From positions 1 through 64,000 of the forward strand of contig JAIXWP010000052.1 in assembly GCA_027491215.1 (NCBI GenBank): 64,000 nucleotides of DNA, in the 5' to 3' direction. Position numbers and translations under genes: made by a program. This DNA comes from Flavobacteriales bacterium. GTDB taxonomy: Bacteria; Bacteroidota; Bacteroidia; Flavobacteriales_D; Sanyastnellaceae. The notes under the pieces are model-generated. The model saw nothing but the letters and a program-made list of their open reading frames with translations, did no database searches and was not told the DNA's origin. Shown here in pieces: positions 3,383 to 13,131 of the stretch (its first letter is position 1; the number at the start of each line of letters is the position of its first letter).

Positions 3383-4198
3383 CTAGTACTGTTCGTTATT
3401 GTTAGGGAAATCCTTTGATTTCACATCATTTACATATTGCTCTACTGCTGCGATCATTTGCTCTCCCGCATTCATGTAGCGACGCAGGAAGCGTGGAGAG
3501 AATTCTTGAGTAATTCCAAGCATATCGTGAACAACCAAGACTTGACCATCAACATCGCCGCCGGCGCCGATTCCAATTACAGGAACGCTTACCGCTTTTG
3601 AAACCTCGGCTGCAAGTTTTGCTGGGATTTTTTCAAGTACAATAGCAAAACAACCACATTCATCAAGAAGTTTGGCGTCGCGAATTAGACGTTCTGCCTC
3701 TTCTTGTTCTTTGGCTCTTACCTGATATGTTCCAAACTTATAAATACTTTGAGGAGTGAGTCCAAGGTGGCCCATTACTGGGATACCGGCAGAAAGAATG
3801 CGCTGAATAGAGTCGCGTATTTCTTCGCCGCCTTCCATTTTCACTGCGTGACCTCCGGTTTCTTTCATGATTCGAATTGCAGAATTCAAAGCCTCTTTAG
3901 AGTTTCCTTGATAAGAACCGAAAGGCATATCCACTACAATTAAGCTTCTCTTTGCCGCTCGCACCACGCTTTGCGCGTGATAGATCATTTGATCTAGAGT
4001 AATGGGCAATGTAGTCTCATGTCCCGCCATTACATTAGAAGCTGAGTCACCTACTAGGATAACATCAATTCCGGCCATGTCCACGATTTTCGCCATGCTA
4101 TAATCGTATGCTGTAAGCATTGAGATTTTTTCACCACGATTCTTCATTTCCTGAAGCGTGTTGGTGGTGATGCGCTTAATTTCTTTTTGTACTGACAT
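3383..4198 (-). CDS. panB: 3-methyl-2-oxobutanoate hydroxymethyltransferase
   Basis: PanB transfers a hydroxymethyl group from 5,10-methylene-tetrahydrofolate to 2-oxoisovalerate, giving ketopantoate for coenzyme A synthesis. The 271-residue length is normal. The family opening [13 protein letters not shown] is at 24-36, the metal-binding VGDS at 49-52 (D51), followed by [13 protein letters not shown], and the catalytic Glu region HAVKMEGG and GHLGLTPQS are intact. A TATATTTG -7 box ends four bases before the ATG, so the mRNA may be leaderless. No other pantothenate gene is adjacent. Confidence 0.96.
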
Positions 4199-4347: not shown

Positions 4348-5277
4348 ATGAAACGACTATTACGAGGCTCCTTGTTGCTTTTGGCATTTTCTGCTTTTCT
4401 CTTCGGATGTAAGAAAGACGAGAAAGAAGAGGTGACCTTTACTGGCAACAACATTCCTTATTATGATGAAGTACCTCGACTTCTCATCGAGAATTATGTT
4501 AACCGTGTTTTCATTGATTTGATTGGCCGAGAGCCAACAGATATAGAGATGACGACGGAGGCCGATGCGCTTCGCGCAGCAAATGCAAGTGAATCTTCGC
4601 GTATCACACTCGTTCAAAAAATCATGTTCAACACAGATCCTATTCCTTCAGAAGGAAGCTATCGTGAGGCATACATCAGAAAGTTTTACGAAGACCAAAA
4701 AGGGCGCTACCTCGAAGGTTCATCAGAAGGAAATATTCTCGATGAATACTATACTTGGCGGGCCATCGCAATCAATGATTCATTGAATGGTAATTGGCTT
4801 CAATATGAATTGGTGATGATTGAAGCAAATAAGATGTTGGATGTTTTTAATAGCAGACTTCAATTAACTAATGATGAAATTGTTTTTGAAGAGGTGTGTC
4901 GAAGAATGATGTTCAATTCGATTTATGATGACATCAACATGAATACATTCAATTTTATTAATGCTACGTTTGATGATTCGTTCTCGCGTTTTCCAACATT
5001 AGCAGAATATGAAGCGGTTGAAGATGCAATTGAGTTCAATGGCAGCGGCGCATTATTCGGCTTAGCTGTTTCTAGCAAGCCGAGCTATCTTGATGTTTTA
5101 GTTGCCTCTGATGAATTTGACGAAGGTTTTGTTCGTTGGGCATTTTCTGCTTATTTATCTCGAGAGGCTACTTCCTCTGAAGTATATATCATGGCACCGA
5201 TTTATGCAGACGGTTCTAATTTTTCACTTATTCAACAAAAAATTTTGACATCCGATGAGTACGCAGGATTTGAATAA
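4348..5277 (+). CDS. Surface-type lipoprotein with DUF1549-like segment
   Basis: This 309-residue lipoprotein has a signal peptide ending LFG-C21, followed by KKDEKEE, a lysine/acid stretch resembling the surface lipoprotein export signal of Bacteroidetes. After it, YVNRVFIDLIGREPTD (about residues 50-66) resembles the start of DUF1549 proteins, which in planctomycetes pair with DUF1501 proteins. The similarity is by pattern only. The C-terminal half contains a weaker echo, SAYLSREATSSEV. It opens the seven-gene run ending at 13131 and overlaps the next gene by 23 nt. Function is unknown. Confidence 0.85.
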   Translation: MKRLLRGSLLLLAFSAFLFGCKKDEKEEVTFTGNNIPYYDEVPRLLIENYVNRVFIDLIGREPTDIEMTTEADALRAANASESSRITLVQKIMFNTDPIPSEGSYREAYIRKFYEDQKGRYLEGSSEGNILDEYYTWRAIAINDSLNGNWLQYELVMIEANKMLDVFNSRLQLTNDEIVFEEVCRRMMFNSIYDDINMNTFNFINATFDDSFSRFPTLAEYEAVEDAIEFNGSGALFGLAVSSKPSYLDVLVASDEFDEGFVRWAFSAYLSREATSSEVYIMAPIYADGSNFSLIQQKILTSDEYAGFE

Positions 5278-5800
5278 TAAAATTGTGGAGTCTTCAGAAC
5301 AAGGCTCTTTAGGTAAGTTGGCATTGCTAGCTACTGCCACTGCTGCAGCTCTTCAATCATGTAAGAAAGATCCAGAACAAGTGGGTGTTTACGAACTGAA
5401 TGATGTAGCGCTCACAACAGATAGTGCGAACAAAACAAGATTGAAAACGAATGAACAATACGTTTCAATTTTGTTCACTAATCTCTTTCAGGCTGGAATC
5501 TCGAGTGATATTGTGTTCGAGTTGAATGAGTGCTTTTTGAGCATCGGAGATCAAGAGTTGGCAAGAGAGGTTTTGATCTCTAATTTGTTTAATAACCCAG
5601 CTGTTCAGCTTCCTACCGTGGAGAACATGATGGCAGATTTGGATGGTTTTATCGAAGAAACGTATAAGCGCTTTTTCGTTCGCCTTCCTTCGGAAGGGGA
5701 GAAGACATGGGTGCGAAATTTCATTTCGAATAACCCATACATGACACCTGAATTGGTGTATTTCAGTTTTGCATTGAGTAATGAATATATGTACTACTAA
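5255..5800 (+). CDS. Lipoprotein paired with the DUF1549-like protein
   Basis: The 181-residue product has an unusual N-terminus: about 20 polar residues precede the hydrophobic stretch LGKLALLATATAAALQS, then C36-KKD-PE as a probable lipid attachment site. A GTG at 5285 would give a more normal signal peptide. The C-terminal segment FIEETYKRFFVRLPSEGEK (about residues 131-149) resembles the Y/F-x-R-x-L-G-R-x-P motif of the preceding protein. The two may therefore be halves of one functional unit. It begins inside the end of the previous gene and ends 12 nt before the DUF1501 gene. Role unknown. Confidence 0.8.
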   Translation: MSTQDLNNKIVESSEQGSLGKLALLATATAAALQSCKKDPEQVGVYELNDVALTTDSANKTRLKTNEQYVSILFTNLFQAGISSDIVFELNECFLSIGDQELAREVLISNLFNNPAVQLPTVENMMADLDGFIEETYKRFFVRLPSEGEKTWVRNFISNNPYMTPELVYFSFALSNEYMYY

Positions 5801-5812
5801 AAATACTGCACG

Positions 5813-7141
5813 ATGATACGTAGAGAATTCCTTAAGAAATCGACGCTAGCGGGTGCAGGTGCAATAACTGCCCCCTATTTACTGCCGAGCGGAAGATTGT
5901 TTGCTGCTTCAGGAAATAGATCAGCTAACCACGTGGTGTTGGTGATGTTTGCTGGTGGAGTGAGACATCAAGAAGCGGTGGGTATGCGCTACTTAGATGA
6001 CAGCCAAGTTGGAGAGCCCTATCCTGGAAATATTATGTACAATATGTTGACGGGAGCACCTCCTGAAATGAAGATTGTATATGGCACAGGAGAAGGTGGA
6101 ATCAATCCGATACCACCGATATTGTCTCAGTCACTTGCATCTCAGGGAACATTGTTTGCGGAAGTTGAAGCGTTGAGCACAGGTCACTTTGGTGGCTTGA
6201 ATTCTATCATACAAGGATCTGTTCCAGGCGGTCAAGGATTGAAGCAACGCCCTGTTAATCCTACCATCTTTGAATACTTGAGAAGACACGGTGGTTATGG
6301 CGCTACCGATACATGGTTTGTCGGAAATTCTATTGGTGGTTCATTGCCTTTGTTGAATTACAGTGCAAATCCTGATTATGGAATTAAATACGGTGGGAAT
6401 TTCTTTGCACCACTTATAACATTCGGCGAACAAGGTTTTGAGTATTTGGGAAATGCTAAAGTGTATCACCCAGAGAATGAACTGGCGCCGATGTATCAGT
6501 TAAAAGCTTTCTTGGATAATAATTTTGCGAATAATGGATTGCTTCTCGACTCACTTGGTAATACTGAAGAAGAGAAGCAGAGCATCAAGATGTTTATGGA
6601 TCTGATGTATGAAAAAATCCAAGCAGGTACTATCACACTTCCTCCGGTAACGGATAATGCAGATACGGCGACAGTTGGTTTTGCCTGTGAACTTTTGAGC
6701 TGGTTTAAGCCAGCGTTCTCCGTTGTAAACTTGAGCAGCGTGGATGCATGTCACAGCGACTTCACTGGTTATTTAAAATCATTGCACAGAGCAGATCATG
6801 CTGTTGGATTCTTGTGGGATTATATTCAACAGATTCCTGAAATGGCTGGAAATACAACGCTCATTTGTGTTCCTGAATGTGGACGTAATGACAATCCGAA
6901 TGCGATCTTAGACGATAACAATTGGCTGGCTTATGATCACAGTGATTTTAATTCTACTCGAATATTTTCATTATGTGTTGGAGCTGGATTTGAGCCAGGT
7001 CTTGTTCGAGGCAGTGAGGGCAATCCAATTGGTCGCGCTTCAGATGCCATGATGACCGCTGCTGATATTTTAGGGGTGGATACATCATTGATGTCGCCTT
7101 ATCTCTATGGAGGAACTACATCATTCTTAGATCAACTATAG
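5813..7141 (+). CDS. DUF1501 (sulfatase-like fold) exported protein
   Basis: The 442-residue protein begins MIRREFLKKSTLAGAGA, a twin-arginine-type signal (R3-R4-x-F-L-K) with a hydrophobic core ending near AASG. The first strand, HVVLVMFAGG, and the late motifs VDACHSDFT and AYDHSDFNSTRIFS match DUF1501, a family placed in the alkaline phosphatase/sulfatase superfamily. A GRASDAMMTAADILGVD segment closes it, as in family members. Substrate and activity are unknown; whether the metal ligands are all retained cannot be judged by eye. It sits between the two DUF1549-like lipoproteins and the cytochrome-like lipoprotein, an arrangement that recalls planctomycete DUF1549/DUF1501/PSCyt clusters. 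Confidence 0.88.
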   Translation: MIRREFLKKSTLAGAGAITAPYLLPSGRLFAASGNRSANHVVLVMFAGGVRHQEAVGMRYLDDSQVGEPYPGNIMYNMLTGAPPEMKIVYGTGEGGINPIPPILSQSLASQGTLFAEVEALSTGHFGGLNSIIQGSVPGGQGLKQRPVNPTIFEYLRRHGGYGATDTWFVGNSIGGSLPLLNYSANPDYGIKYGGNFFAPLITFGEQGFEYLGNAKVYHPENELAPMYQLKAFLDNNFANNGLLLDSLGNTEEEKQSIKMFMDLMYEKIQAGTITLPPVTDNADTATVGFACELLSWFKPAFSVVNLSSVDACHSDFTGYLKSLHRADHAVGFLWDYIQQIPEMAGNTTLICVPECGRNDNPNAILDDNNWLAYDHSDFNSTRIFSLCVGAGFEPGLVRGSEGNPIGRASDAMMTAADILGVDTSLMSPYLYGGTTSFLDQL

Positions 7142-7146
7142 TAACA

Positions 7147-8121
7147 ATGAAAAAATACATCTCATACAGCCTTGTCTTTTTCTTCATTGTTCTTGTGGTG
7201 GTGAGTTGCAAGAAGGATGGCGAAGAATTGACGAACCCATATGAAGGGCTGACCGTGCCAGTGGATAACGATAACCCAGATGCAGATGCACTTCCAGAAG
7301 GCAGCTTTGCGTGGTTACATGCTAAAATATTTCGTCCTACCTGCGCTAACAGCGGATGTCATGATGGAACATTTGAGCCTGAGTTTAGAACGATTAGCAG
7401 TGCGTACAATTCATTGGTAAATCATCCAGTGATTGCGAACGACCCGGGAAATAATTTTGAATATAGAGTTGTTCCAGGAAACCATCAGCAGTCATGGTTA
7501 TATCAGCGCTTGACAGTTGAAGTGGATAATACAAGTGGAATGATGCCTTTGGCGACAGACCCTGGCAGCGATTGGCCGGAGTTGAGTGATTTTTATGTAG
7601 AAAAAATTGCTCAATGGATTGATGACGGAGCAAAAGACATGTTTGGGAATCCCGCGCCAGCTGCAGGAGTAAATGGGATTCCATTGGCATATGGCATGGC
7701 AGTTTTCCCAACAGGAAATACTACTACTCCATTTCCAAGAGAAGAGAATCCAACACTTGGTGTTGGATCTATCCTAGTTCCAACAGGCCCTGTAGATCTT
7801 TGGTTTGGTGCAGTAGATGACAATGCAGGTGTAAATAATTTTACATCATTTAGCATGAAAGTTTCATCGAATATCACTGATTTTTCGAATGCTGTAGAGG
7901 TGCCGTGTACACTTTCAGGACCAATCACTGCATTGGATTTTACGGATAATACAACACAGCTTTATTACAAAGCAACGTTTGATTTTTCTGGGATTCCTGC
8001 TGGAGAGTTGCGTTATGTTCGCGTTTACATCAATGATGGAGTTCAACCTAGTGTTACAGAGCTTCCTAATTCCTCTTCGAATTACTTCTGGTTTTTATTA
8101 TTTTCATTGAAAACGATATGA
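7147..8121 (+). CDS. Lipoprotein with CX4CH cytochrome-c-like motif
   Basis: This 324-residue lipoprotein has lipid attachment at C21, followed by KKDGEE. FRPTCANSGCHDG (61-74) places C66 and C71-H72 in a CX4CH spacing rather than CXXCH. Further on, TSGMMPLATD looks like the Met-Pro axial ligand segment of a class I cytochrome c. The N-terminal half (about residues 55-160) is then a likely single-haem domain, and the C-terminal half is beta-rich. In other bacteria such CX4CH domains accompany DUF1501 genes. Whether haem is attached is not established here. Its stop overlaps the next start (ATGA). Confidence 0.82.
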   Translation: MKKYISYSLVFFFIVLVVVSCKKDGEELTNPYEGLTVPVDNDNPDADALPEGSFAWLHAKIFRPTCANSGCHDGTFEPEFRTISSAYNSLVNHPVIANDPGNNFEYRVVPGNHQQSWLYQRLTVEVDNTSGMMPLATDPGSDWPELSDFYVEKIAQWIDDGAKDMFGNPAPAAGVNGIPLAYGMAVFPTGNTTTPFPREENPTLGVGSILVPTGPVDLWFGAVDDNAGVNNFTSFSMKVSSNITDFSNAVEVPCTLSGPITALDFTDNTTQLYYKATFDFSGIPAGELRYVRVYINDGVQPSVTELPNSSSNYFWFLLFSLKTI

Positions 8122-8561
8122 AAAAAATACTATTTCTTGCCGCGGTTTCATTGGCATTTTTAGGGTGTAAAAAAGACAGTGAAGAAGAAGATAATCCAAC
8201 TTCTCCAATCTTGACATTTGTAAGCATATCATCCAATGAAGCTGTGTCTTATAGTAATGATTTAAAGGTCATTTTCTCGTATGAAGATTTTCAAGGTGAC
8301 CTTGGTGAAGACGATCCAGATGCCTTGACTTTATGGGTGAAGGACGCTCGACTGGATGCAGCAGATTATTATCACGTTCCTCCGATGACTCCAGAAAACC
8401 AAGAGCTTCATATCAAAGGAAATTATGAGGTGTCTTTGAATACCTTGTTTTTATTGGGGAATGGTGCAGCAGAAACAACCAAGTTCACAATTCAATTGCG
8501 TGATCGGGCAGGAAATGTGAGTAATATTATTGAGACTACTCCTGTTACAATTACACCTTAA
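8118..8561 (+). CDS. Small lipoprotein, unknown function
   Basis: The 147-residue protein has a signal peptide ending FLG-C17, followed by KKDSEEE, again the acidic/lysine stretch seen in its neighbours. The remainder is beta-rich, with KFTIQLRDRAGNVSN near the C-terminus resembling an immunoglobulin-like or cadherin-type strand pattern. No catalytic motif is visible. Start overlaps the stop of the cytochrome-like gene (ATGA), showing translational coupling. Its stop codon directly abuts one copy of the ACCGAA-N6-TTCGGT palindrome. Confidence 0.8.
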   Translation: MKKILFLAAVSLAFLGCKKDSEEEDNPTSPILTFVSISSNEAVSYSNDLKVIFSYEDFQGDLGEDDPDALTLWVKDARLDAADYYHVPPMTPENQELHIKGNYEVSLNTLFLLGNGAAETTKFTIQLRDRAGNVSNIIETTPVTITP

Positions 8562-8578
8562 CCGAATGAACGTTCGGT
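8561..8578 (+). repeat. Dispersed 18-bp palindrome, copy 1 (intergenic)
   Basis: ACCGAATGAACGTTCGGT. It fills the gap between the stop of the small lipoprotein and the ATG of the CHU_C protein at 8583, so in mRNA a 6-7 bp stem with a GAAC loop would sit just before the start codon. Confidence 0.8.
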
Positions 8579-8582
8579 GCCT

Positions 8583-11500
8583 ATGAAATACGTGAAACTA
8601 TTCATATTATTTATTTTTTCATTTGCAATCAGCAATGAATCTTTTGGACAAATCATTCCTGAATATGATATGTCTGACACTACATTGACAGATTGCAATG
8701 GTATTCTGTATGATAGCGGAGGAGATGGTGGATTGTATGGCAATAATGAAAATTTGACCACAGTTATTCAAACGGGTGGTGTCATTAATATCGTTTTTAG
8801 TGGTGTGTTTACCGTTGAGCCAGGGCTTGATTTTCTTTACATTTATGATGGCCCAGACGCTACCTTTCCTTTGATAGGGCAGTATTCAGGAACTACGTTG
8901 CCACCATCGCTCACTGCGAATAATGGGGCAATCACTTTGGTGTTTACTTCAGATAATAGCGCAGTGTATGCTGGGTTCGTTGTAGAGTGGGAAACTATTG
9001 TTCCGCCTCCTGTTCCACCCACCATCAATGTGCCTGTTCTTCCAGATTGTAACCAAGCACTTCTAGAGGTTCATTGGTCTTACGATTTGTATTGCGAATG
9101 GGTGGATGCAGCGACTTTTAGCGTGTTGCGAGAAGGAGAAGAGTTAGAGCTTTTGGGAGTGGCTCCCTTCTGTCCAAATGACTCCACCCCTTATGCGGTC
9201 ATAGCTCTAGCTGATCCATTTACTACTAATTGTACTTATCAAGTTCAAATTGAAATCTCTATTCCAGATATCTGTGGTACTTTTTATCCCTTCATATTAA
9301 CCACGGAGTTCACTGTTTCGAGTTGCAGCATTGATGGAGAAATAGTCGCATCAGAGCCGAGTATTTGTCCAGGAAATTGCAGTGTGCTCCAATTCGAAAC
9401 ATTGAGTTGTTTAGGACAAACGTACTCGTGGAGTAATGGGCTTCCTTCTTCAGCAGGGCCGCACACGGTGTGTCCTACAGTAACTACAACATATCAACTA
9501 ACCGTTACAGAAGAGTCTACAGGAGTTGTTGAAGTTTTTGAATACACAATAGAAGTATTATCAACTTCTATTATTACACCAGATCAAACGATATGTCAAA
9601 GTATTGCAGCATTTGAATTGGAAGCTGCAGTTGATGGTGAATGGAGTGGACCGGGTATTCAAGATGAGGTAACAGGATTGTTTGAACCCGATTCTGCATT
9701 CTCCGGAGTGAACACCATTTATTTTGAGTCTGCAGGCTGTTTGGATTCTGTGCTGATTACCATTGAACCTATATCCACCGACAATACTGTAGCGGCTTGT
9801 CCTGGTACAGCTCCGTTTCAATTGAATGCACTTCCAATTGGCGGTGTATGGGATGGGCCGTTCACGACAACATCAGGAATTTTTGATCCAACCAACCAAG
9901 GATCATATGTCGTTTATTATGACGTAAATGGATGTCGAGATTCAGTTGACGTGAATGTTTTCGATATTACTGGCACTTTTACTTTTGATACCATTTGTCA
10001 ATCCGTATGGACAGATACGTTGCAGTTTTCACCTTTAGGTGGGTACTGGCAAGGAGCTGGAATACTTGATTCACTCTTGGGGATTTATGCTCCAGCGGGA
10101 GTTCCTGCTGGCGATGCTTCATTTACCTACATAATCAATGGTTGTCAGCAGACATATACAGGATTTATAAAAGAAATATTTACTGGTCAGAGTTTTCATA
10201 CTGCATGTCCATTAGAAGATCCGCAAGTTTTCTATACAGAGCCTTTCACGCCTTCCGGAGGTGAGTGGGTAGGTCCTGGAATTATTAATCCTATTTCGGG
10301 ATTGTTTGATCCTGGCGCGGTGGCAGATGATACTTATAATAGTCTAATTTACTACGCACCGAATGGTTGTTCGGATACAACATTCATTTATGTGAAGCAA
10401 ACAGAAATTGGCTTGGATACATTGTGGATGTGTTCAGATGATGATCCATTTTTTTTATATGAAAATGATGCACTGCATAATCCTGCATATGGAGGTCAAT
10501 GGACAGGAACAGGGATAGGTTATAATGGAGGAGAGGATTGGTATTTTTCACCGACAATTTCTGGTGTAGGAAGCTTTACTGTTTATTATACTAAGAACAC
10601 TTGTGTTGATTCTTTGCCTGTTGTAGTTTTTCCTTCAGAACTAAATTTACCAGACGATATAATGTGTAGCAACGAGCCTCCCGTTTGGTTGGGTGATGGT
10701 ATTCAGGAAGGCGGCATTTGGAGCGGTTCTGGAATAACCGAACAAACGCTCGGTTGGTTTGATCCAGCTCAAGCTAATGTGGGTGGTAATATGATTTATT
10801 GGACAACTCCGGCGGGTTGCGAGGATTCATTGTACATCGAAGTAGAAGCATTTGATCAAGCACAGATTTCTGGGGTAGAAAGTTTTTATTGCTATCTCGA
10901 TTCGAATTATGTTTTTGCTGTGAGTCCTGCGGACGGTGTTATTTCAGGTGCTACAGATACACTTACATTTAATCCTTCAGTTTTAGGTGAGGGAAGTTTT
11001 GAAATCATTTATACATATACTGGAATGGTCTGCTCCAGCGCCGACACAGTTTCCTTTGAAGTTTATCCAGAATTAACGACATCGATTGATGTAACGGAAA
11101 CCATTATTTGTGATGGCTCTACATCAACCATTACAGTGACTGCAAGTGGGGGCAATCCTAATGTGAATTACACTTATGAATGGAGTGATGGTGCATTTCC
11201 CGTGAATACAAACACAGTGGATCCATTGGCTACGACTACATTCATTGTTACAACCTCGGATGGTTGCTCAGATCCTGTAATTGATGAAGTAGAGATTCAA
11301 GTTTATCCTCCAATAGATTTTGATGTCATCATTAGTGATACGTTGTGTTTTGGTGATGAAGGATTTGCGCAAGCTTCGGCTAATGGAACTGGACCGTTTA
11401 ATTTTTCATGGAACGGCCAAGCGGGACCATCCATAGCGGCACAAGCGGGCGAGGCGTTGGAGTTGTTGATCATTGATCAAAGTACAGGATGCGATGCGGA

Positions 11501-12065
11501 TACTGTAGTTTTCTTACCGTCATATCCACCTATCATCGCAAATTTCTCCATCAATCCAAACTTGGAGTGCATCGATTATGATGAGCGAGAGAATGTACAG
11601 ATTATTGATTTTTCACAGAATGCAGTGACAGGCACATGGGATTTAGGTGGAGGTATTTTTGAAGTCTACTCCTTGGGCACTACACCTTCATTGAGCTATG
11701 CAAGTGCTGGTCAGTTTACTGTAACATTAATCGTAGAGAACGTTGGCGGATGTAGTGATACAAGCACCGTTTCTATTTGCATCTTACCAGCAGATCCTAC
11801 CTTTATTCCTGATATTTTTTCACCGAATGGTGATGGAAATAACGATGTGTTTTTTGTTAGAGGAAGGGGAATCATAGAACTTGATTTTAGAATTTACAAT
11901 CGATTCGGCCAACAAGTATTTCGAAGTACTAATGCTTCTGTAGGATGGGACGGGACACAAGGAGGGAAGCCAATGCCTAGTGGAAGTTATGTTTATAGCG
12001 CTTCGATAAAATTGGCGGACGGAACAACTCAGGATGTTAAGGGAGAGGTCACCTTAATAAGATGA
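8583..12065 (+). CDS. Giant surface protein with CUB-like N-terminus, tandem modules and CHU_C (T9SS type B) C-terminus
   Basis: This 1160-residue secreted protein has a Sec signal (about residues 1-22). A CUB-like domain follows (about 30-140, GNNENLTTVIQTGG through FLYIYDGPD). The middle holds seven related modules of about 65 residues, each with G-G-x-W-x-G-x-G-I, G-x-F-x-P and G-C-x-D-S elements. A PKD-like stretch follows, and the last ~85 residues (PDIFSPNGDGNNDVFF to VTLIR) are the gliding-motility/CHU_C domain used as a T9SS type B sorting signal. The start is the ATG at 8583; a GTG lies six bases upstream. The PorP/SprF-type gene directly downstream is the expected export or anchoring partner. 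The exact ligand is unknown. Confidence 0.92.
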   Translation: MKYVKLFILFIFSFAISNESFGQIIPEYDMSDTTLTDCNGILYDSGGDGGLYGNNENLTTVIQTGGVINIVFSGVFTVEPGLDFLYIYDGPDATFPLIGQYSGTTLPPSLTANNGAITLVFTSDNSAVYAGFVVEWETIVPPPVPPTINVPVLPDCNQALLEVHWSYDLYCEWVDAATFSVLREGEELELLGVAPFCPNDSTPYAVIALADPFTTNCTYQVQIEISIPDICGTFYPFILTTEFTVSSCSIDGEIVASEPSICPGNCSVLQFETLSCLGQTYSWSNGLPSSAGPHTVCPTVTTTYQLTVTEESTGVVEVFEYTIEVLSTSIITPDQTICQSIAAFELEAAVDGEWSGPGIQDEVTGLFEPDSAFSGVNTIYFESAGCLDSVLITIEPISTDNTVAACPGTAPFQLNALPIGGVWDGPFTTTSGIFDPTNQGSYVVYYDVNGCRDSVDVNVFDITGTFTFDTICQSVWTDTLQFSPLGGYWQGAGILDSLLGIYAPAGVPAGDASFTYIINGCQQTYTGFIKEIFTGQSFHTACPLEDPQVFYTEPFTPSGGEWVGPGIINPISGLFDPGAVADDTYNSLIYYAPNGCSDTTFIYVKQTEIGLDTLWMCSDDDPFFLYENDALHNPAYGGQWTGTGIGYNGGEDWYFSPTISGVGSFTVYYTKNTCVDSLPVVVFPSELNLPDDIMCSNEPPVWLGDGIQEGGIWSGSGITEQTLGWFDPAQANVGGNMIYWTTPAGCEDSLYIEVEAFDQAQISGVESFYCYLDSNYVFAVSPADGVISGATDTLTFNPSVLGEGSFEIIYTYTGMVCSSADTVSFEVYPELTTSIDVTETIICDGSTSTITVTASGGNPNVNYTYEWSDGAFPVNTNTVDPLATTTFIVTTSDGCSDPVIDEVEIQVYPPIDFDVIISDTLCFGDEGFAQASANGTGPFNFSWNGQAGPSIAAQAGEALELLIIDQSTGCDADTVVFLPSYPPIIANFSINPNLECIDYDERENVQIIDFSQNAVTGTWDLGGGIFEVYSLGTTPSLSYASAGQFTVTLIVENVGGCSDTSTVSICILPADPTFIPDIFSPNGDGNNDVFFVRGRGIIELDFRIYNRFGQQVFRSTNASVGWDGTQGGKPMPSGSYVYSASIKLADGTTQDVKGEVTLIR
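9580..11065 (+). repeat. Tandem coding repeats in the CHU_C protein
   Basis: Six clear modules and one weaker one, each about 60-70 codons, share the order Cys - G/D-G-x-W-x-G - F-D/E-P - Y - G-C-x-D-S. They are diverged at the DNA level, so they are old protein repeats and not recent tandem duplications. Boundaries are approximate. Confidence 0.7.
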
Positions 12066-12138
12066 CTTTACTTTAGCCTACTTGGACAGACATACTCAGA
12101 GATAGAAAATCCTGATTTGAAAAATATATAATCATCAC

Positions 12139-13131
12139 TTGAAACCATCTATGCGTGTACTTCTACTATTGATTTCGTTGTTGTGTTGGAGCAATTTTTT
12201 GTTCTCGCAGGACGCGTCTTTTAGTCAGTTCTATCATGTTGGTCATTGGTATAATCCAGCTCGTGTCGGGTCAATGGAGCAGGATATTAAAGCTGGTGTT
12301 CATTACCGCAATCAATGGGCTGCAAACCTGGAGGGATATCGCACGAATGGATTTAATGTTGAGGCGCGAGCTCGAAAAGCACCGTTTTCAATGGGTTTAT
12401 TGATAGTAGATGATAAGTCAGGAAATGCTTCGTTAAAAACATTTCAAGCATTGGTATCAAGTGCGTATCGTCTTGAGGTGAATCGCAGTCAGACTTTGAC
12501 AGCGGGTTTTCAATTGGGATTGGTGCAGCGTTCTATCCAGATGGAAGATTTGCGTTGGGACAAACAGTACAATGGATATCAATATGATCCAACGATCGAT
12601 TCAGGCGAACGTCAATTTTCCGACCGCACTGGTAATAAGATTGATTTGGGGATGGGCGTTTTTTACACCTTTGAAAAGCCTGTGCGTGCTGGAGTAGGTT
12701 ATGCTTTTCATCACTTAGGTCAAGATCAAACTTTTTTACAAAATGGTAAAGATCGTTTGCCCATTAGACAGTCGATGCAAGGTTATATAGAACGGGACTT
12801 CGATAGATTTGGAGGACGTTTAGATGCATTGGTTCAGCGACAGCGCGGGGCCATGGAGTATCTTGTAAACTTTAAAACCGAATATAGATTCGGTTATGAT
12901 TCTAAATACACAACTGAGAATAATTCATCTGCGATTTACGTAGGATGTGGTTATAGACATGCGAGTGCTATTATTCCGAGTATGGGTTTTGAGTGGGAGC
13001 GAAAGTTGGAAATCAGTGTCTCTTATGATATCGTATTTTCTCGCCTGAGCGAGGTCACTACATTTGGCGGTGGACCTGAGATTGGTCTTATCTACAAATA
13101 CCGCACGGATAAGCGTATGAGAATTCGCTAG
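12139..13131 (+). CDS. T9SS-associated outer membrane protein PorP/SprF
   Basis: The 330-residue protein has a signal peptide (to about residue 24, LFSQ) and then DASFSQFYHVGHWYNPA, the typical opening of PorP/SprF proteins. It continues with G-x-H-Y-R-N-Q-W and alternating barrel strands to the C-terminus. PorP/SprF barrels are encoded beside T9SS cargo with type B C-terminal domains and are needed for their secretion or retention at the surface. Here it follows the CHU_C protein by 73 nt, fitting that pairing. A second in-frame ATG is at 12151. One perfect palindrome lies inside the gene at 12877. Confidence 0.9.
   Translation: MKPSMRVLLLLISLLCWSNFLFSQDASFSQFYHVGHWYNPARVGSMEQDIKAGVHYRNQWAANLEGYRTNGFNVEARARKAPFSMGLLIVDDKSGNASLKTFQALVSSAYRLEVNRSQTLTAGFQLGLVQRSIQMEDLRWDKQYNGYQYDPTIDSGERQFSDRTGNKIDLGMGVFYTFEKPVRAGVGYAFHHLGQDQTFLQNGKDRLPIRQSMQGYIERDFDRFGGRLDALVQRQRGAMEYLVNFKTEYRFGYDSKYTTENNSSAIYVGCGYRHASAIIPSMGFEWERKLEISVSYDIVFSRLSEVTTFGGGPEIGLIYKYRTDKRMRIR
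12877..12894 (+). repeat. Dispersed 18-bp palindrome, divergent copy 2
   Basis: ACCGAATATAGATTCGGT, within the PorP/SprF gene. With one more base on each side the arms are 8 bp (AACCGAAT/ATTCGGTT) around ATAG. The outer arms match the other copies; the spacer does not follow the YGAANR pattern. Confidence 0.6.

Follow-up and report, generated by a model that had tools for sequence, protein, structure and literature searches.

A five-gene core, A to E, in a Flavobacteriales bacterium is, to judge from comparative sequence data, a genuine conserved unit of the Bacteroidia that is apparently undescribed; no description of it was found in the part of the DUF1501, DUF1549/DUF1553, DUF1800, and DUF4214 literature that was covered, which takes in few subscription papers. 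The genes lie in a window of 64,000 nucleotides (positions 1 to 64,000 of contig JAIXWP010000052.1, assembly GCA_027491215.1). Our preferred reading, held with slightly less than even confidence, is that A-E form an envelope redox complex, a strongly diverged and split counterpart of the PSCyt1-DUF1549-DUF1553-DUF1501 module, and that one clade of these loci adds a T9SS arm.

In the window, the core is continued by two further genes, F and G, and all seven open reading frames are present in a tight plus-strand run at 4348-13131 (Table 1). The sequence-only reading of this DNA had described seven plus-strand genes with overlaps or short gaps, and the reading frames and coordinates agree, with junctions that range from -23 nt (A/B) through -4 (D/E), +5 (C/D), +12 (B/C), and +15 (E/F) to +73 nt (F/G). 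The starts of F and G more likely lie at ATG 8583 and ATG 12151, respectively, than at the listed GTG/TTG codons. Upstream of the run is a minus-strand gene (3383-4198) that we take from its translation to be panB, and downstream is what is presumably, again from its translation, murA (13220). Curated Pfam and NCBIfam cut-offs were passed by F, G, and the Tat signal of C, and nothing else in A-E of the window scored above them. Promoter and terminator scans of the window gave no signal above shuffled background. A role in anti-phage defense was rejected given that there were no PADLOC matches.

Table 1. Genes A-G and conserved sites in the window.
Feature	Position	Strand	Description
Gene A	4348..5277	+	Helical lipoprotein, 309 aa; DUF4214/phycobilisome-linker type, faint DUF1549 likeness
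Gene B	5255..5800	+	Lipoprotein, 181 aa, DUF4214-like; starts inside the end of A (23 nt)
Gene C	5813..7141	+	442-aa member of the alkaline phosphatase superfamily, exported by Tat; remote homology to DUF1501
C, D311-x-C313-H314	6743..6754	+	Align with metal-site residues of intact relatives
C, E355-(C/H)356-G357-R358	6875..6886	+	Stands where intact relatives have an Asp-His metal pair
C, D375-H376	6935..6940	+	Invariant; aligns with the last metal-ligand His
Gene D	7147..8121	+	Lipoprotein; PSCyt1-like cytochrome c domain plus an additional domain at the C-terminus
D, CANSGCH (CX4CH)	7342..7362	+	Heme-c attachment motif; Cys, Cys, and His invariant (84/84)
D, Met133	7543-7545	+	Invariant
Gene E	8118..8561	+	Small lipoprotein, 147 aa, without family; 4-nt overlap with D
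Gene F	8577..12065	+	T9SS type B surface protein, 1162 aa (CUB, repeats, SprB, PKD, CHU_C)
Gene G	12139..13131	+	PorP/SprF outer-membrane protein

The arrangement of the core is conserved far beyond this genome. A first GTDB scan with C returned 25 loci from MAGs labelled mostly Flavobacteriales, Saprospiraceae, and Bacteroidia, nearly all of which carried A-B-C-D-E, and most of them also F, in the same order and orientation. The same A-E arrangement was seen in the regions that were added, 20 from the same order and 40 from across the class. When 85 loci were scored (four are repeats of the same genome, and there are 80 distinct C proteins at 99% identity), the order A-B-C-D-E was kept in 79; of the remaining six, five are truncated where a contig or region ends, and the sixth (L197) has no detectable A. 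Gene order is conserved across many families, and the flanking genes vary by lineage, with panB and murA next to the cluster in near relatives only. Among 114 genomes of the same family, co-occurrence of A, C, and F was almost perfect: A and C were found in the identical 26 of the 50 high-quality genomes. An F orthologue (E < 1e-40) accompanied them in all but one of these (25 of 26), G485, whose locus sits at a contig end, and the remaining 24 genomes had none. In a sample of 395 Bacteroidia genomes, C was present in 93, representing 56 of 197 genera (E < 1e-30). Most full-length C scores in this class sample were either about 630-795 or about 350-530 bits, and one C from each of these two groups is present in some 20 genomes. 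That A-E are merely chance neighbors, separate genes with unrelated histories, might be suggested by the lack of a shared annotation for most of the proteins; however, we give this almost no credence, and consider chance adjacency refuted, given the near-complete co-occurrence in family genomes and an order that holds across so many families. The sequence-only reading had proposed a search for its gene order in other Bacteroidota and would have given way to separately transcribed genes of unrelated distribution or to an order peculiar to one strain; what we found instead is a widely conserved unit, and the seven-gene run is more than chance.

In a midpoint-rooted FastTree phylogeny, 84 C proteins fall into clade I, with 59 proteins (support 0.81) including the window copy, and clade II, with 25 (support 1.0). 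F was found in 54 of the 59 clade I loci, with G beside it in some lineages, and near none of the 25 clade II loci, one of which (L137) is too short to judge. Two of the five clade I loci that lack F are cut by region or contig ends (L130 and L133), and the absences in L122, L197, and L206 are likely real. End-to-end orthologues of F occur in clade I only. Given that clade II has A-E without F, the T9SS link is a property of one clade and lies outside the core. The pairing of a T9SS type B protein with a PorP/SprF partner, as originally proposed, is well founded: CHU_C/TIGR04131 in F and PorP_SprF/TIGR03519 in G were both over cut-off, and F further contains CUB, PKD, and, just below cut-off, SprB domains in Pfam and NCBIfam searches. 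Type B proteins bind PorP-like proteins, according to PMC9143113. G stands beside F in most Flavobacteriales copies and is absent next to F in most others. The wider proposal, that the cluster as a whole is linked to surface display through T9SS, holds for clade I but not for clade II, where A-E occur without F or G.

This distribution also bears on the idea that the cluster is a surface assembly or adhesion device, in which A-E would be an outer-membrane scaffold that positions, exports, or anchors F, with structural or regulatory heme and metal sites. We consider this unlikely. Although F is conserved over its whole length and bound to clade I, and A and B resemble linker-type scaffold domains, clade II retains A-E with identical invariant heme and metal residues in the absence of F, and L122, L197, and L206 hold core genes without it.

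Several individual loci differ from the common pattern. In L122 (genome G475), A-E are intact, F and G are missing, and E directly precedes murA; to go by this gene content, the T9SS arm has been lost naturally in this close relative. Genome G324 encodes an F of 1730 aa (L131:6288-11477) compared to the usual length of about 1160 aa, and besides L131 it carries another copy of A-E, which belongs to clade II. In clade II loci L210, L212, L216, L217, and L223, the cluster follows a same-direction gene that, from its translations, we take to encode an M20-type peptidase. The clade II cluster of L136 (genome G317) lies just before a putative respiratory operon, presumably one for alternative complex III to judge from the translations.

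D is very likely a c-type cytochrome homologous to planctomycete PSCyt1, as predicted from its profile and conserved residues. The CX4CH gene named in the sequence-only reading was confirmed (Table 1), and across 84 sequences the invariant residues are C66, C71, H72, M133, P134, W157, I158, and G161, which amounts to a CX4CH plus axial-Met pattern. Profile comparison (hhalign) matched D to PSCyt1-DUF1549-DUF1553 proteins over the cytochrome region (96.7%, E 4.7e-10). The Pfam gathering score for PSCyt1 (PF07635) was not reached, with matches in 2 of 34 members and an E of 0.048 at best, and a c-type cytochrome model was matched weakly by 22 of the 34. Cytochrome c assembly proteins are encoded in the genome of the window. 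In L036 and L037, D consists of the cytochrome domain only, suggesting that the C-terminal domain is dispensable in some lineages.

By profile and predicted-fold likeness, C is a member of the alkaline phosphatase superfamily. Its Tat signal (TIGR01409) was over cut-off, and a Tat signal was present in 25 of 30 cases. In profile comparisons, C matched a family of phosphodiesterase-like proteins whose motifs are intact (99.6%, E 1.5e-24; hhalign) and, less strongly, the DUF1501 proteins linked to DUF1800 (92%, E 6e-7); the comparison with planctomycete-type DUF1501 gave 49% (E 1.7e-4 over 382 columns). On these values C is closer to the intact family than to DUF1501. The Pfam model of DUF1501 (PF07394) did not match C in the window or in the 30 relatives at E 0.1. 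The structural model (pLDDT 79.5) has sulfatases, LTA synthase, and alkaline phosphatase as PDB neighbors in Foldseek (E 6.5e-9, probability 1.00, TM 0.40-0.46). The description of C as a twin-arginine-type DUF1501 protein therefore stands for the Tat signal, but the DUF1501 label applies by remote homology only; formal membership was rejected given a score below the curated cut-off. C does have DUF1501-type features (an RR signal, D311-x-C-H314, E355-C/H-G-R358, and D375-H376), similar to the DTH, EFGR, and TDHG pattern of that family.

In C, D311 and H314 are invariant (84/84), C313 is kept in 82 of 84 sequences, and H376 is invariant; these residues align with one metal site. Where relatives have their Asp-His pair, Glu355 is found in 81 of 84, followed by a residue (356, at 6878-6880) that is Cys in 44 sequences, His in 39, and always His in clade II, a Cys/His exchange such as a metal ligand would show. 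Gly48 stands in place of the first metal-ligand Asp, and the residue at the position of the nucleophile varies (N/S/T/I/V/A). The structure prediction and site comparison proposed in the sequence-only reading thus recovered the superfamily fold and one site, but the first Asp and the nucleophile are lost, and the complete two-metal site and nucleophile of alkaline-phosphatase-superfamily enzymes are not kept. Hydrolysis by C is doubtful given that the metal-ligand Asp and the hydrolase nucleophile are not conserved, which weakens the earlier "hydrolytic" interpretation, and we infer that C is a metal protein but not an ordinary hydrolase. For the same reasons, an unusual ester hydrolase or transferase, in which a single metal would let C cleave phosphate or sulfate esters and D would be a redox sensor or regulator, seems to us improbable: the fold and its sulfatase, phosphodiesterase, and alkaline phosphatase relatives favor it, as does the invariance of one metal site, but Gly in place of the first Asp, a variable nucleophile position, and Glu-Cys/His in place of the other Asp-His do not. 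The joint presence of heme and metal motifs with surface-type lipoproteins might also point to surface acquisition, storage, or sensing of heme or metal, with D and C binding cofactors rather than using them. We rate this as quite improbable, given that the D motif denotes covalent heme with a Met ligand, which is typical of electron transfer, and that the conserved block contains no TonB receptor or transporter.

The claim of four lipoprotein signals was upheld by lipobox-type cysteines in A, B, D, and E, conserved in 34/34 A, 26/26 B, and 83/84 D sequences; the N-terminus of B is atypically long in the window species. From the lipid cysteine on, the proteins read CKKDE (A), CKKDPE (B), CKKDGE (D), and CKKDSE (E). 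A surface-export signal for lipoproteins, C-X-K-(D/E)2, was defined in another species (PMC5080379); A matches this foreign signal exactly, and B, D, and E are similar only. DUF4214 (PF13946) was matched by 20 of 34 A and 17 of 26 B members at E 0.1, mostly below cut-off; the A protein of L052 was over it, and the window copies of A and B were below. Other matches among A members were to phycobilisome linker (6/34) and, below threshold, to DUF1549 (8/34) and DUF1553 (2/34), and the A model (pLDDT 91.5) has phycobilisome linker domains as its nearest PDB folds, with a Foldseek probability of 1.00 but an E of 0.38. The hhalign comparisons of A with DUF1549 (7%) and of B with DUF1553 (16%) were weak. 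The "DUF1549-like" label of A was thus only partly borne out: some sub-threshold matches exist, but the strongest are to DUF4214 and phycobilisome linker, and formal DUF1549 membership was rejected on the curated cut-off and the weak profile match. Given that Pfam and NCBIfam make no DUF1549 or DUF1501 call, the family labels of A and C are statements of remote homology. The C-terminal half of A has weak similarity to DUF1800, and a split DUF1800 was rejected as an identity for A because the similarity is weak only. The profiles of A and B match each other (93%, with the signal peptide forming part of the alignment), and the two may be related. An A/B overlap of 20-26 nt was seen again in Flavobacteriales, Saprospiraceae, and clade II loci; its recurrence in such distant lineages suggests translational coupling of A and B.

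We compared the core with four known systems. No DUF1549 match was found in a first sample of 61 Bacteroidota genomes, and canonical modules were thus reached through PSCyt1, which was found in 74 of the 198 genomes sampled from the phylum; the regions around strong PSCyt1 matches were used. In these regions, the canonical PSCyt1-DUF1549-DUF1553 proteins are about 770-1150 aa long with two CXXCH motifs, and most have a DUF1501-type protein as neighbor, often with another CXXCH protein as well. The planctomycete-type module (PSCyt1, PF07635; DUF1549/PSCyt2, PF07583; DUF1553/PSD1, PF07587; with DUF1501, PF07394) shares with the core a homologous cytochrome domain (D), a partner from the alkaline phosphatase superfamily that is exported by Tat and has a similarly altered metal site, and the faint DUF1549/DUF1553 resemblance of A. 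The window cluster differs in that it is split into small lipoproteins, D has CX4CH rather than two CXXCH motifs, the cytochrome gene follows rather than precedes, A, C, and D are below all Pfam cut-offs, and clade I adds T9SS genes. The proposal of a planctomycete-like module hence finds its footing in the homology of D to PSCyt1 and in the superfamily that C shares with alkaline phosphatase and DUF1501, but the links of A and B are weak. According to PMC5615132, nothing is known about what PSCyt gene groups do; a role with carbohydrates is suggested there.

The DUF1800-DUF1501 operon (PF08811, PF07394), noted together with its Tat export in PMC5122149, likewise pairs a DUF1501-type protein, exported by Tat, with a helical one, but it has no cytochrome lipoprotein. 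A separate canonical DUF1800-DUF1501 pair is encoded in the genome of the window (C69:22334-24765). SprB/SprF-type systems resemble the F-G pair, in which F has a CHU_C signal and a PorP/SprF gene follows it directly; however, the window pair is tied to a five-gene lipoprotein/cytochrome core, and G is often not adjacent outside Flavobacteriales. DUF4214 (PF13946) and phycobilisome linker (PF00427) are the best family matches of A and B, which are, in contrast to them, stand-alone lipoproteins in a conserved operon, with window copies below cut-off.

Under the envelope redox complex that we favor, C would fold around its metal in the cytoplasm, be exported by Tat, and dock on A and B, two lipoproteins that would be translationally coupled and would serve as a helical scaffold at the outer membrane. 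A single c-type heme with His/Met ligation would let D pass electrons to or from the metal site of C, which would make the proposed complex a redox enzyme rather than a phosphatase, and E would be an accessory subunit. In clade I, F may act as a surface arm that binds a substrate or a surface, in some lineages with the PorP/SprF barrel G. Conserved order by itself is no proof of a physical complex, and we infer that one is formed by A-E. A more ambitious version, which we put forward only tentatively, is that A-E represent a distinct and widespread class of Bacteroidia envelope redox enzymes, combining a heme-c lipoprotein with a protein of alkaline phosphatase fold in which the second metal site would have been remodelled (Asp to Gly, Asp-His to Glu-Cys/His) to allow new chemistry, and that one clade reaches the cell surface through a dedicated T9SS protein.

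That a block of five genes with invariant heme and metal-type residues occurs in about a quarter of the sampled Bacteroidia genomes and yet has hardly any family annotation marks a large blind spot in a major phylum. The compact, small-subunit version, which occurs in genomes as small as about 2 Mb, could make the chemistry of such modules tractable, and the clades with and without the T9SS protein provide a natural test of what the surface protein contributes.
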